A stretch of 53,558 nt of DNA from Planctomycetota bacterium (GTDB lineage: Bacteria; Planctomycetota; Phycisphaerae; SM23-33; FEN-1343), in contig JAAYZK010000233.1 in assembly GCA_012514895.1 (NCBI GenBank), forward strand, positions 1 to 53,558, in the 5' to 3' direction. The notes below the pieces were generated by a model. It saw only the letters and a list, made by a program, of their open reading frames with translations, searched no databases and had not been told where the DNA came from. The position numbers and the translations under genes are program-made. Positions 15,174 through 20,077 of this stretch are shown here, piece by piece. The first letter of the stretch is position 1. The number at the start of each line of letters is the position of its first letter.

Positions 15174-18098
15174 TCACAGCGCCGCCAACGCGCCGTCGAT
15201 CGCGTCCAACCGTCCCTGCATCTCGGCCAGGCGCTTCCGCTCGGCCTCGACAACGGCCGGCGGTGCGTTGGCGACGAACTTGGCGTTGCTGAGCTTGCCT
15301 TCGGCCGAGGCGATGCCGCGCGCAACGGTGGCGCGTTCCTTCTCGAGGCGGGCCCGCTCGGCCTCGACGTCGACGACGTCGGCGACGAAGGCCGTCACGC
15401 CGGCCGCGACGACCGTGGCCGCCCGCGCATCGGGCTTGGCGGCCCCGGCACGGACGGTCAACTCGCCCAGGTTCGCCTGGGACCGGATGAGCTCGAGGTT
15501 GTCCGAGATGCGCTGGGCGTCGCCGCCGGCAGCGTCGATCGTCACGTCCAGCTCGCGCGAGGGCGGCACGTTGTGCGTCGTGCGGACCTGCCGGATCCCG
15601 CGGATCAGCTCGCGCATCGCGTCGAACTGCCGCTCGGCATCGCCCTGGATCAGCTCGGCCTGCGCCCGGGGCCAGGCGGCCCGGACCAGCAGCGGCTCGC
15701 CGGGGCGGTCGGCCAGGCCCCTCAGGGGAACCACCTCGTTGAGCTGCTGCCAGACGGCCTCTGTGATGTACGGGATCACCGGGTGCAACAGCCGCAGCAA
15801 CCCGTCCAGGACGTACGCGACGATCGCCTTGGGCGCGGCCTCGCCGGCGGCGATGCGGCGCTTGGCGATCTCGAGATACCAGTCGCAGAAGTCGTCCCAC
15901 GTGAACCGGTACAACACGCCCGCCAATTCGTTGAACCGGTAGGTCTCCAGGGCCGACGTCGCGTCGCGGATCGTGGCGTGCAGGCGGCTGAGGATCCACG
16001 TGTCGGCGAGGTTCCCGCCGGGATGGACCGCCTGCCAGCTCGGCGCGCCGGCGACGTTCATCAGCGCGAAACGCGACGCGTTCCACAGCTTGTTGCTGAA
16101 GTTCCGCCCCAGGTCGAACTTCGGGGAGGTGTTCCTCTCGCGCCCGTCGGGCAGCCTGACGTGCTCAACCGGCATGCGGACGTCCTGCGTCTCGGTCGTC
16201 ATGGACGCCAGCGTGTATCGCAGCGCGTCGGCGCCGTGGCTGTCGATGATGTCCAGCGGGTCGATCCCGTTGCCGAGGCTCTTGGACATCTTGCGGCCCT
16301 CGCCGTCCTGGATCATCGCGTGGATGTAGACGTCGTGGAAGGGGGGCGCCTGGCGGAAGTACTGGCCGAACATCACCATGCGGCTGACCCACAGCGTGAT
16401 GATCTCGCGGGCGGTGCACAGGACATCGGTGGGGTAGAACCGCTTGAGCAGGTCCGTCTCATTCGGCCAGCCCATCGTCGAGATGGGCCACAGGCCCGAG
16501 CTGAACCACGTGTCGAGCACGTCGGGATCCTGCTGAAACCCCGCGGCCTCCAACCGGGCGGCGACGTCCCCGGTGCCGGTGGGGGGGCAGACGTACAGGC
16601 GTCTGAGCGATGGATCGTCGGGATGATCCATTAGCATCGTCGCAGCCCCCTCGACCGGGCAGGCCGCCTCGCCGCCGACGGGCAGGTCCTTCGACCAGAC
16701 CGGGATGCGGTGGCCCCACCACAACTGCCGGCTGATGGGCCAGTCCCGGAGGTTTTCCAGCCACGTGCGGTAGTTGACCGCATAGCGCTCGGGCGTGAAC
16801 TTCAGGCGGCCGGCCAGCAGGGGCTTCAGGGCGATGCCCGCCAGGGAGTTGGCCGGCACGTCGGTGCCGTCGAGGATTCCGTCGCCGAACGCCGCGGCCA
16901 GCCGCCCGATGGGCTGCTTGACGGCGATGTACCACTGGTCGGACAGGTACGGCTCGATCGGCACGTGGGAGCGGTAGCTGTGGCCGACCTCGTGATCGTA
17001 ATCGCGGATGTCCTCCAGCAATCCCTCGGCGCGGAACCACTCGACGATGGCCTCGCGGGCCTCGAAGCGGTCCATGCCGAGGAATCGCTCGGCGTCGCTG
17101 CCGACGGCGTCGTCCCAGCCGTAACGGTCGCTGATCGTCCCGTCGGGCGCCATCACGTTGACGATCGGCAGGTCGTGCCGCTGGCCGATGGCCCAGTCGT
17201 TGGGGTCATGCGCGGGGGTGACCTTCAGGAATCCGGTCGCGAAGCGGGCTTTGGGGTCGTCGCTGTCGGGATCGCCCAGGACGACGTATTCGTCGGCGAT
17301 GATGGGGATGATCCGACCGACCAGCGGCAGGCGGACCTCCCGGCCCACGAGGGCCGCGGCCCGCGGATCGCGCGGGTTGATGGCCACGGCGGTGTCGCCC
17401 AGCATCGTCTCGGGGCGGGTCGTCGCGACGGTCACGTGGTCGACCGGGGCGCCGCCGATCATGACCGGCTCGACCAGCGGGTAGCGCAGGTACCAGAAGA
17501 AGCCCTTGACGGTCTCGTGCTCGACCTCGTCGTCGGCCAGCACCGTCTGGGTCGCGGGGTCCCAGTTCACCAGCCGCTTGCCGCGGTAGATCAGCCCGTC
17601 GGCGAACAACTGGAAGAACGCGGTGCGGACGGCGGCGGCGCAGACCTCGTCCATCGTGAAGCGGGTGCGGTCCCAGTCGCACGAGCAGCCCATGGCCTCC
17701 AGCTGGCCGAGGATGCGGGCTTCATACTCGTCCTTCCACGCCTGGATCCGTCCGATGAAGGCCTCGCGGGTGAAATCGCCGCGGCGTCTGCCCTCCTCGG
17801 CGAGGATGCGCTTCTCGACGACGGTCTGCGTCGCGATGCCGGCGTGGTCGGTGCCGGGCATCCAGAGGGTGTTGAAGCCGGCCATGCGCTTCCAGCGGAC
17901 GAGGATGTCCTGCAGCGTGTTGTTCAACGCGTGGCCCAGGTGCAGGGCCGCCGTCACGTTAGGCGGGGGGATCACGATCGTGTAGGTCGGGCCGCCCGCC
18001 TTCGGGTCGGCGGCAAAGCTCCGGGCCTGCCGCCACAGCGCGTAGATATCCGCCTCGGTCTGTCGGGGGTCGTAGACTTTCGCCAGTTCCTTGGCCAT
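15174..18098 (-). CDS. valS: Valine--tRNA ligase
   Basis: Class I synthetase of 974 aa with the full domain set. The HIGH-type motif ALHLGHALN is near residue 54, followed by WMPGTDHAGIATQ, a large CP1 editing domain in the middle, the KMSKS motif GRKMSKSLGNGIDP near residue 603, and the ValRS-specific C-terminal coiled coil (ERARLEKERATVARGIASAEGKLSNAKFV). An ATG at 18104 overlaps the cimA stop as ATGA; the second in-frame ATG at 18098 has the better AGG spacing (9 nt) and is used here. It is the distal gene of cimA-valS, whose leader peptide is rich in valine codons, so uncharged tRNA-Val should raise its own synthetase. Confidence 0.95.
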   Translation of the reverse strand: MAKELAKVYDPRQTEADIYALWRQARSFAADPKAGGPTYTIVIPPPNVTAALHLGHALNNTLQDILVRWKRMAGFNTLWMPGTDHAGIATQTVVEKRILAEEGRRRGDFTREAFIGRIQAWKDEYEARILGQLEAMGCSCDWDRTRFTMDEVCAAAVRTAFFQLFADGLIYRGKRLVNWDPATQTVLADDEVEHETVKGFFWYLRYPLVEPVMIGGAPVDHVTVATTRPETMLGDTAVAINPRDPRAAALVGREVRLPLVGRIIPIIADEYVVLGDPDSDDPKARFATGFLKVTPAHDPNDWAIGQRHDLPIVNVMAPDGTISDRYGWDDAVGSDAERFLGMDRFEAREAIVEWFRAEGLLEDIRDYDHEVGHSYRSHVPIEPYLSDQWYIAVKQPIGRLAAAFGDGILDGTDVPANSLAGIALKPLLAGRLKFTPERYAVNYRTWLENLRDWPISRQLWWGHRIPVWSKDLPVGGEAACPVEGAATMLMDHPDDPSLRRLYVCPPTGTGDVAARLEAAGFQQDPDVLDTWFSSGLWPISTMGWPNETDLLKRFYPTDVLCTAREIITLWVSRMVMFGQYFRQAPPFHDVYIHAMIQDGEGRKMSKSLGNGIDPLDIIDSHGADALRYTLASMTTETQDVRMPVEHVRLPDGRERNTSPKFDLGRNFSNKLWNASRFALMNVAGAPSWQAVHPGGNLADTWILSRLHATIRDATSALETYRFNELAGVLYRFTWDDFCDWYLEIAKRRIAAGEAAPKAIVAYVLDGLLRLLHPVIPYITEAVWQQLNEVVPLRGLADRPGEPLLVRAAWPRAQAELIQGDAERQFDAMRELIRGIRQVRTTHNVPPSRELDVTIDAAGGDAQRISDNLELIRSQANLGELTVRAGAAKPDARAATVVAAGVTAFVADVVDVEAERARLEKERATVARGIASAEGKLSNAKFVANAPPAVVEAERKRLAEMQGRLDAIDGALAAL

Positions 18099-18100
18099 CG

Positions 18101-19726
18101 TCATTCACCTGCCAGTGAAGCCGGCGCGGCGGCGCCGGCGGTGTCGTCCATGTCCTTGAAGAGCTTGTACTCGAAGGCGTCGGTCAACGCCAGCCACGAC
18201 GCCTCGATGATATTGCCGCTGACGCCCACCGTGCCGAAACTGCCCTGCTCGTCGTGGAAGCGGATCGCCACACGAACCTTCGCGGCCGTCCCGGCGACGG
18301 CGTTGACGACGCGGACCTTGTAATCGTCCAGGTGCACGCGGTCGATGGCGGGGTAGCGGCCCCGCAGCGCCTTGCGCAGGGCGCCGTCCAGGGCGTTGAC
18401 CGGCCCGTCCCCGTCGGCGACGGTGTACTCGTCCTGGCCGTCGATGACCAGGCGCACGACGGCCTCAGTCGTCGCCGCCTCGCCGTCGGTGCGGAGGATG
18501 TTGCACCGGTAGTGGTCGAGCATCCAGAACGGCCCGCGGTGCCACGGCTCGCCGAGCGTCTTGCGGATCAGCACGTCCAGCGTGCCGTCGGCGGCCTCGA
18601 ACTCGTAGCCTTCGGCCTCCATCGCCACCACGCGCTGGAGGATCCGCCGCTGGGCGTCCTTGTCGTCGGCCAGGCCGAACCGCCGGTGCGCCGACGCGAC
18701 GATGTTGCTCGCGCCGGCCAGTTCCGACACGAGCACCCGCCGCCGGTTGCCCACCAGGGACGGGTCGATGTGCTCGTAGGTGCTGGTGTTCCGCTGGACG
18801 GCGTGCACGTGCATCCCGCCCTTGTGCGCGAAGGCCGAGCGCCCCACGAAGGGCTGATGGTCTTCGAAGGCCAGGTTGGCCACTTCGTAGACGAAACGGC
18901 TGACCTCGGTGAGCTGCGCCAGCGCGCCGTCGCGAAGGCAGGGCCGGTTCAACTTCAGTGTCAGGTTGGGGATCACGCTGGTCAGATCGGCATTGCCGGC
19001 GCGTTCGCCGACGCCGTTGATCGTCCCCTGGACCTGGACGGCCCCGTGCCGGACCGCCTCCAGGGCGCAGGCGACCGCCAGGCCGCTGTCGTTGTGCGTG
19101 TGGATCCCCAGCCGCGCCTCCGGAAGCCGCCGGACGAGGGCCTTGAGCACCTTGGCGATCGTCTCGGGCAGCGAGCCGCCGTTCGTGTCGCACAGGACCA
19201 GGCGGGTCGCGCCGGCGTCCAGGGCGGCCCGGAGGGTGTCGACGGCGTAGCGGGGGTTGGCGCGGTAGCCGTCGAAGAAGTGCTCGGCGTCGTAGACGAC
19301 CTCGCGACCCTCGGCGGCGCAGAACGCGACGCTGTCGGCGATCATGCGGAGGTTCTCCGGGCGGGTGACGCGGAGGACCTCGGTGACCTGCATGTCCCAG
19401 CTCTTGCCGACGATGGTGCAGACGGGGGCCTGCGAATCCAGCAGGGCCTGCAGGCCGACATCCTGGTCGGCGGCGATCCCGCGCCGGCGGGTCATGCCGA
19501 ACGCCGCGATCTTCGCATGGGCGAGCTTCCGCGAACGGATGTGCTGGAAGAAGGCGGCGTCCTTGGGATTGCTCAGCGGGTAGCCGCCTTCGACGTAGTC
19601 GACGCCCAGCGCGTCCAGCCGCTCGGCGATGAGCAGCTTGTCTTCCAGCGACAGGCTCACGCCCTCGGCCTGCGTGCCGTCCCGCAGGGTGGTGTCGTAA
19701 ATCTCTACTCGGTTGTCAGTCGTCAT
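18101..19726 (-). CDS. cimA: (R)-citramalate synthase
   Basis: 541 aa, of the citramalate synthase branch of the 2-isopropylmalate synthase family. It condenses pyruvate and acetyl-CoA in the threonine-independent route to isoleucine. Motifs are DTTLRDGTQAEGVSLS at the N-terminus, the metal-binding GIHTHNDSGLAVA and GVGERAGNADL. The C-terminal LeuA-type regulatory domain (about 400-525) includes KVRVVNAVAGTAAKVRV. The start TRDGTQAEG pattern and length fit CimA better than LeuA. Its ATG overlaps the stop of a five-codon ORF (ATG at about 19740), possibly chance. It is the first gene of an operon with valS, behind a branched-chain amino acid attenuator, consistent with a role in isoleucine synthesis. 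Confidence 0.92.
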   Translation of the reverse strand: MTTDNRVEIYDTTLRDGTQAEGVSLSLEDKLLIAERLDALGVDYVEGGYPLSNPKDAAFFQHIRSRKLAHAKIAAFGMTRRRGIAADQDVGLQALLDSQAPVCTIVGKSWDMQVTEVLRVTRPENLRMIADSVAFCAAEGREVVYDAEHFFDGYRANPRYAVDTLRAALDAGATRLVLCDTNGGSLPETIAKVLKALVRRLPEARLGIHTHNDSGLAVACALEAVRHGAVQVQGTINGVGERAGNADLTSVIPNLTLKLNRPCLRDGALAQLTEVSRFVYEVANLAFEDHQPFVGRSAFAHKGGMHVHAVQRNTSTYEHIDPSLVGNRRRVLVSELAGASNIVASAHRRFGLADDKDAQRRILQRVVAMEAEGYEFEAADGTLDVLIRKTLGEPWHRGPFWMLDHYRCNILRTDGEAATTEAVVRLVIDGQDEYTVADGDGPVNALDGALRKALRGRYPAIDRVHLDDYKVRVVNAVAGTAAKVRVAIRFHDEQGSFGTVGVSGNIIEASWLALTDAFEYKLFKDMDDTAGAAAPASLAGE

Positions 19727-19749: not shown

Positions 19750-19783
19750 AAAAGCCCTCAAGCGGTGCAGAACGCCTCAGGGC
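19750..19783 (-). terminator. Attenuator terminator of the cimA-valS operon
   Basis: On the minus strand GCCCTGAGGCG (19783..19773) and CGCTTGAGGGC (19764..19754) form an 11 bp stem with one mismatch and one G-U pair, followed by TTTT. It lies between the leader ORF and cimA. The 5' arm can instead pair with GTGCCTTAGGGC (19824..19813), which spans the leader stop codon. That gives 12 contiguous pairs counting G-U with GCCCTGAGGCGT (19783..19772): a mutually exclusive antiterminator. Confidence 0.85.
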
Positions 19784-19815
19784 GGGTCGGCGGAAGGAAG
19801 AGGACCGGCGGAGCC

Positions 19816-19929
19816 CTAAGGCACGAGTACGGGGACGACCGGTACGATGATACCGGCGGCGCGGAGGCTGACCGCCCGGCCCTGATGGCCGTTGGGGCGG
19901 GTGTCAGCGATCGTCAGCGTCCGCACCAT
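19816..19929 (-). CDS. Leader peptide for cimA-valS attenuation (37 aa, Ile/Val/Leu-rich)
   Basis: A 37-codon ORF whose end reads I27 I28 V29 P30 V31 V32 P33 V34 L35 V36 P37 then TAG, so eight of the last eleven residues are branched-chain. Seven Val, three Ile and three Leu codons occur in all, including two GTA codons, which are rare in this genome. GGGAG lies 4 bases before the ATG at 19929. The stop codon is within the antiterminator strand, so a ribosome that reaches it allows the terminator, while one stalled on Ile or Val codons frees the antiterminator. This matches the downstream genes: Ile-pathway CimA and ValRS. A competing 13-codon ORF from an ATG at 19945 has no such bias. Confidence 0.88.
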   Translation of the reverse strand: MVRTLTIADTRPNGHQGRAVSLRAAGIIVPVVPVLVP

Positions 19930-20049
19930 CGTACTCCCGGTTCATGCCTTGGATCAGAGGCGGTTCCAGGGCCTCCTGGCCGGCGGAGTTCCCAGGAGAA
20001 CACCCGCCCGCCGAAGGCTCGTGAAACAGCTCACAAAAGACGTATCGGC

Positions 20050-20077
20050 ATTATAGTACCGCCCCCTTGCGTGTCAA
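20050..20077 (-). promoter_or_regulatory. Consensus promoter of the cimA leader
   Basis: On the minus strand a perfect TTGACA (20077..20072), a 16 bp spacer and a perfect TATAAT (20055..20050). Transcription would start near 20043, about 114 bases before the leader ATG. This is the best sigma70-type match in the window and fits an operon regulated by attenuation rather than at initiation. Confidence 0.88.

Follow-up and report, generated by a model that had tools for sequence, protein, structure and literature searches.

The leader preceding the cimA-valS operon in the 53,558-nt planctomycete contig analysed here (the window) is, in all likelihood, a ribosome-mediated transcription attenuator that senses the supply of isoleucine and, in front of cimA-valS, that of valine as well. 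The initial annotation of this DNA had proposed a branched-chain attenuator of classical geometry in front of cimA-valS, a reading supported by the conserved frame, codons and pairings; it did not include a helix between strands 1 and 2 (1:2), a second helix that sequesters the leader start codon, the copies of the leader in front of ileS, or the role of isoleucine as the invariant residue. The device recurs in relatives, where it is found before ileS as well, and it is therefore real and not a chance pattern: in orthologous cimA regions of other genomes, the leader frame, the Ile and Val codons and both of the pairings first proposed, antiterminator and terminator, are conserved. Sequence and comparison together establish the frame of the leader, its control codons, four helices, the cimA-valS operon and the copies before ileS, and the positions of these features in the window are given in Table 1.

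Table 1. Leader, switch and operon features, as positions in the window (strand 2:strand 3, antiterminator; strand 3:strand 4, terminator)
Feature	Position	Strand	Details
sigma70-type promoter	20050..20077	-	TTGACA 20077-20072, 16-nt spacer, TATAAT 20055-20050; 12/12 consensus match
Dispersed palindromic repeat	19956..20033	-	between promoter and leader; outside the switch
Strand 1	19930..19950	-	AAGGCAU (19950-19944) and GAGUACG (19936-19930), 5' of the start codon
Leader peptide ORF	19816..19929	-	MVRTLTIADTRPNGHQGRAVSLRAAGIIVPVVPVLVP; 37 codons from ATG 19929; stop TAG 19818-19816
Start-codon helix, 5' arm	19913..19926	-	GUGCGGA C GCUGAC; pairs with 19872-19859
Start-codon helix, 3' arm (anti-start)	19859..19872	-	GUCAGC C UCCGCGC
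Control codons	19822..19851	-	AUC AUC (Ile-Ile, 19851-19846), followed by five Val codons and a single Leu codon amid Pro
Strand 2	19813..19831	-	19831-19818 (5' half) is the partner of strand 1; GUGCCUUAGGGC at 19824-19813 (3' half), spanning the stop codon, is that of strand 3
Strand 3	19772..19783	-	GCCCUGAGGCGU; antiterminator 3' arm and terminator 5' arm
Strand 4 and short U-tract	19750..19764	-	CGCUUGAGGGC (19764-19754); U-tract 19753-19750
cimA, citramalate synthase	18101..19726	-	TIGR00977, 670 bits, E=1.8e-201
valS, valyl-tRNA synthetase	15174..18104	-	TIGR00422, 920 bits, E=1e-276; 4-nt overlap with cimA

The perfect TTGACA-16-TATAAT promoter that had been annotated is indeed present. 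A consensus scan reported three promoter-like sites in 5 kb, where 0.4 were expected, and in relatives a TTGAC..TATAAT promoter lies directly 5' of the leader. The gene order is also shared, with valS directly downstream of cimA at 26 of the 28 other loci of the order that were checked, and in a CimA protein tree the window groups with Phycisphaerae metagenome-assembled genomes (MAGs), within the Planctomycetota. The imperfect palindromic repeat of about 78 nt that occupies part of the cimA 5' leader in the window (20033..19956) folds as a hairpin, has at least seven other copies in the genome (78-84% identity) and resembles a REP or miniature element; it is absent from the cimA leaders of the relatives compared and is thus an insertion specific to the window genome.

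We found that the layout upstream of cimA in the order consists of the promoter, strand 1 (consensus GGCAYGCAG), the start ATGCGGACG, a hypervariable stretch, the anti-start strand CGTCCGCGC and Gly-Ile-Ile, followed by a run rich in Ile and Val. Strand 2 GCGTGCCTTAGGGC then spans the stop codon and is separated by a variable loop from strand 3 GGCCCTGAGGC, after which come strand 4 GCTTCAGGGCC and a U-tract. A covariance model (R1) built from the second half of the leader matches 29 of the 38 genomes of the order, some members having no recognisable leader, and all 31 matches with E<1e-5 precede either cimA (21) or ileS (10), the latter assigned by the ileS family model or, on short contigs, by N-terminal sequence. 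Outside the order, three other families of the class have weaker matches before cimA. Among named genomes, cimA is preceded by a match in three additional MAGs (L041 and L042 of the Phycisphaerae; L046) and in four Pirellulales; for example, the cimA leader of a Bythopirellula MAG reads MANSSPIVVATLVSVGIIVIIVA up to its stop codon, and inspection of L036 and L039 gave MNSRIASIIIISNHTKR and MICLATYKSLLIRRIIMMIGAMPR, respectively. Most of the leaders beyond the order contain Ile-rich ORFs but lack the start-codon layout of the order, and a search of 294 genomes across the phylum with the model returned, apart from the window, only weak matches (best E 7e-5). In the window genome itself, the ileS leader (L215, G000) looks degenerate with its terminator stem intact, and the ileS leader of G033 (L232) has lost its ORF and kept its terminator.

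The 37-codon leader ORF noted initially is present, but the start codon that aligns with those of relatives is the GTG at 19926, which gives 36 codons, and not the ATG at 19929. A total of 35 leader peptides were compiled. Across relatives they follow the pattern M-R-T…V-R-A-G-I-I…V-P-stop, with a conserved R-A-G-I-I core in which I-I is found in nearly all leaders; the Ile codon run is kept in frame and the remaining peptide varies. A D-N-L motif (GACAAYCTG) follows M-R-T at codons 6-8 in many of the Ile leaders. Over the final 14 residues of 33 leaders, Ile was enriched 4.5-fold and Val 2.1-fold over background, with Leu at 0.3-fold. Val made up 69 of 322 residues before cimA versus 10 of 140 before ileS (Fisher p=1.4e-4, uncorrected for relatedness), the share before ileS being at background level. 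Since Ile is enriched throughout and Val only before cimA-valS, Ile may be regarded as the common signal, to which Val is added where valS is in the operon; as judged from these leader sequences, the invariant control residue is Ile rather than Val.

Several features indicate that the leader ORF is translated. The distances from start codon to anti-start strand (49-73 nt) and from there to the TAG (23-89 nt) change only in steps of three, two off-phase rows in this test tracing to mis-picks by the search pattern, whereas the non-coding loop 3' of the stop codon has lengths in all three phases (16/9/8). In addition, a purine-rich, Shine-Dalgarno-like stretch is situated 5' of the leader start codon. 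We considered whether regulation could instead be exerted by the peptide itself, as a functional small protein or as an arrest peptide of specific sequence. Conservation of the R-A-G-I-I core and of the C-terminal Pro before the stop would fit such a peptide, but we judge it very improbable: the middle is hypervariable and the RNA pairing is nonetheless kept, a third-position substitution excess was looked for in close leader pairs and none was seen, the leader peptides of leuA (see below) are unrelated and Leu-rich, and pairing may account for the conservation of the Pro, whose codon is part of strand 2.

Reading the sequence bore out the antiterminator that had been claimed to span the leader stop codon, in which GTGCCTTAGGGC (19824..19813) pairs with GCCCTGAGGCGT (19783..19772) over 12 positions, three of them G-U. 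The claimed terminator was also confirmed, with a stem at 19783..19754; only four Ts follow it, the U-tracts of relatives being longer, and a consensus scanner did not report it in the window. Upstream, the two segments of strand 1 find their partners in strand 2, AAGGCAU with GUGCCUU (19824-19818) and GAGUACG with CGUACUC (19831-19825). Across leaders, the distance from strand 1 to the start codon 3' of it is 15-58 nt; unlike in trpL, strand 1 does not overlap the control codons, an overlap that is not essential to attenuators. In the window, 7 nt separate the anti-start strand from the first Ile codon, 4 nt being the distance in most relatives, and in almost every leader the stop codon falls within strand 2.

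Pairs were counted in a gapless block alignment of 27 leaders, from which the cimA leaders of G030, G019 and G006 and the ileS leaders of G001, G019 and G020 were excluded because a block was unplaceable or degenerate; G055 and G046, from outside the order, were also left out. In the 1:2 helix, 84% of cells were paired, with two-sided changes in six of ten pairs (22 cells), and none of 500 shuffles was as good. The start-codon helix was paired in 91% of cells, the 2:3 antiterminator in 88%, with a covariation score matched by one of 500 shuffles, and the 3:4 terminator, next to which lies the U-tract, in 94%. When strands were swapped among leaders in permutation tests that treat leaders without regard to relatedness, the energy of 1:2 changed from -16.9 to -15.1 kcal/mol (0 of 5000 permutations reached the cognate energy), that of the start-codon helix was -21.1 kcal/mol for cognate versus -18.3 kcal/mol for non-cognate strands (0/5000), and the extension of this helix outside the conserved core also co-varied (-9.2 to -6.9 kcal/mol; 0/5000); for 2:3 the figure was 360/5000, in a test that lacks power because the strands are nearly invariant. 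The 1:2 helix presumably protects the terminator in an untranslated leader.

Extensive, co-varying secondary structure would also be expected of a ligand- or tRNA-binding riboswitch, such as a T-box, with the ORF lying by chance inside the aptamer, and ileS is under the control of T-boxes in Actinobacteria and Firmicutes (PMC1262725, PMC2494555). However, such a riboswitch is scarcely plausible for these leaders, since Rfam 15 gave no match in the window at gathering and none at E<0.1 in six leaders, the ORF changes in length by whole codons only, the run of Ile codons stays in frame amid otherwise variable peptide positions, and the control residues switch with the target gene. Equally hard to credit is an incidental ORF in a leader that binds a protein or that ends a short transcript at a constitutive terminator. 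Such a leader would suit the terminator being the most stable equilibrium structure and the retention of the terminator in the ORF-less ileS leader of G033, but predicts that strand 1, the start-codon helix and strand 2 across the stop codon would be neither conserved nor co-varying.

For the Ile/Val attenuator, we propose that in untranslated RNA strand 1 would pair with strand 2 atop the helix that buries the leader start codon and, strand 2 being thus occupied, the 3:4 terminator would form and cimA-valS would be off. When Ile or Val is short, the leader ribosome would stall on the Ile/Val codons, opening the start-codon helix and covering or destabilising 1:2; strand 2 would stay free where it crosses the stop codon, and this part would capture strand 3 before strand 4 is made, leading to read-through by RNA polymerase. 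When both amino acids are sufficient, the ribosome would reach the stop codon and cover strand 2, and 3:4 would terminate transcription. What we infer is that the ribosome stalls, that folding proceeds in this order and that transcription is affected accordingly. Leader-peptide attenuation needs a ribosome close behind RNA polymerase, and the mechanism presupposes transcription-translation coupling, which is putative in this organism; a conserved, co-varying attenuator makes such coupling directly testable in planctomycetes.

The window leader folds better than all of 100 shuffles (z = -3.5), and its minimum-energy fold is one long hairpin, composed of the start-codon helix and 1:2, in which strand 2 is occupied and 3:4 is free to form. 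Folding had been suggested as a check for two mutually exclusive structures; both pairings are present and conserved, but equilibrium folding does not separate the states. In the full leader with ribosome masks, the terminator formed in almost every ribosome state, and in the same calculation for thrL, hisL and ilvL of Escherichia coli the terminator largely won too, with a partial effect for thrL. Because full-length equilibrium folding was uninformative, we used a snapshot of the RNA before strand 4. In this snapshot, the mean probability of 2:3 was 0.61 with the ribosome stalled at Ile versus 0.60 in free RNA; that of 1:2 was 0.60 and dropped to 0.15 when the ribosome stalled at the last Ile codon, a stall at the first Ile codon alone keeping the helix (0.60 to 0.54); and that of 2:3 was 0 with the ribosome at the stop codon, because the mask itself covers strand 2. 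Since the terminator nearly always wins at equilibrium, as it largely does in the E. coli controls, the capture by strand 2 must be kinetic.

Enterobacterial branched-chain attenuators include ilvL (of ilvGMEDA), ivbL and leuL, and thrL is a further attenuator of this kind. The planctomycete leader resembles these four in its control codons for the end product, its alternative 1:2, 2:3 and 3:4 helices, its intrinsic terminator and its association with a biosynthetic operon, but differs from them in that strand 1 is located 5' of the start codon, with the whole ORF in the 1:2 loop, a second helix buries the start codon, the targets are cimA-valS and ileS, and the host belongs to the Planctomycetota. 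The uORF attenuator of Corynebacterium ilvBNC (Narunsky et al. 2023, via PMC11109978) and the actinobacterial ilvB leaders (PMC1262725) share with it, in the excerpts of these sources that we used, an Ile/Leu/Val-rich uORF and an antiterminator complementary to the terminator; they differ in gene (ilvB), phylum and sequence, and the same excerpts describe two stems and mention no start-codon helix. Synthetase genes under a leader peptide rich in their own amino acid are likewise known, namely pheST of proteobacteria, trpS and leuS of Streptomyces (PMC1262725) and hisS of bacilli (PMC2965389), whereas here one homologous leader is common to ileS and cimA-valS. The T-boxes of ileS (PMC1262725, PMC2494555) share both the target and the signal, namely the charging of tRNA-Ile, but are tRNA-binding RNAs that involve no leader translation; the sole planctomycete included in that survey had none.

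Leader-peptide attenuation is known in Proteobacteria and Actinobacteria and has been reported in Firmicutes (PMC1262725, PMC2965389, PMC11109978). The 2010 survey consulted does not mention planctomycetes, and short ORFs close to genes in Planctomycetes have been interpreted in terms of reinitiation, not attenuation (PMC4833913). In agreement with the initial annotation, which knew of no planctomycete description, we found no case in the non-subscription literature searched, and the absence of a published description is thus provisional. Very probably, then, this is a genuine classical attenuator in a phylum for which no description was found, with an unusual start-codon helix and a leader shared by cimA-valS and ileS. 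These genes would constitute an isoleucine regulon that operates without any regulator protein, and the leader is a candidate RNA family for Rfam.

We also scanned blindly for short ORFs with a terminator downstream, taking the reverse strand as control. Of 29 cimA genes, 19 had an ILV-rich leader (control, 1/29), and of 14 leuA genes, 11 had a Leu-rich one (control, 0/14); the results for ilvB (5/25; control, 2) and ileS (5/28; control, 3) were weak alone, and some ilvB genes have comparable Val-rich leaders. The leuA gene of the window genome (L242, G000 contig C406) is preceded by the leader MTGDSLILADALALLLR, ending at a stop codon, and leuA leaders with terminators occur in the order and class (L242; L243-L256), one example being MVRQRDSLSLLLLLGLLLR. 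Such a Leu-rich leader is probably a leucine attenuator, and a match of control codons to the pathway would be hard to explain by anything but attenuation. In another family, the covariance model also detected a leader in G070 (contig C47; L175:480-610), whose ORF, GFWRRWYYFYSF, contains eight aromatic codons and is combined with the same strand 2/3/4 module; the gene 3' of it has an N-terminus that matches DAHP synthase. Aromatic-rich leaders (Phe/Tyr/Trp) are also present before the DAHP synthase genes of G056 and G017; by scan, aromatic leaders preceded 2 of 31 DAHP synthase genes and were not found before that of the window.

While a ribosome pauses on the Ile codons, the start-codon helix would be kept open, and once the ribosome departs the helix would be able to close, so that one structure in the leader would sense both timely initiation and Ile supply. 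We see about even chances that the following joint reading is correct: that the start-codon helix nested in 1:2 makes this a distinct attenuator architecture, sensing timely initiation together with Ile supply, and that, given the matching leaders at leuA, ilvB and DAHP synthase genes, much of planctomycete amino-acid regulation proceeds by leader-peptide attenuation. Elsewhere, the covariance model matched L177 and L187 before genes resembling GNAT acetyltransferases, with short ORFs ending in GGVP and GGGP before the stop codon, and gave weak matches at L182 and L192 before genes resembling MATE-type transporters, where the short ORFs, each closed by a stop codon, are MKPYIDIIPIIAVAGGGCA and MRFRPIIPITIRPSRRFGRA.
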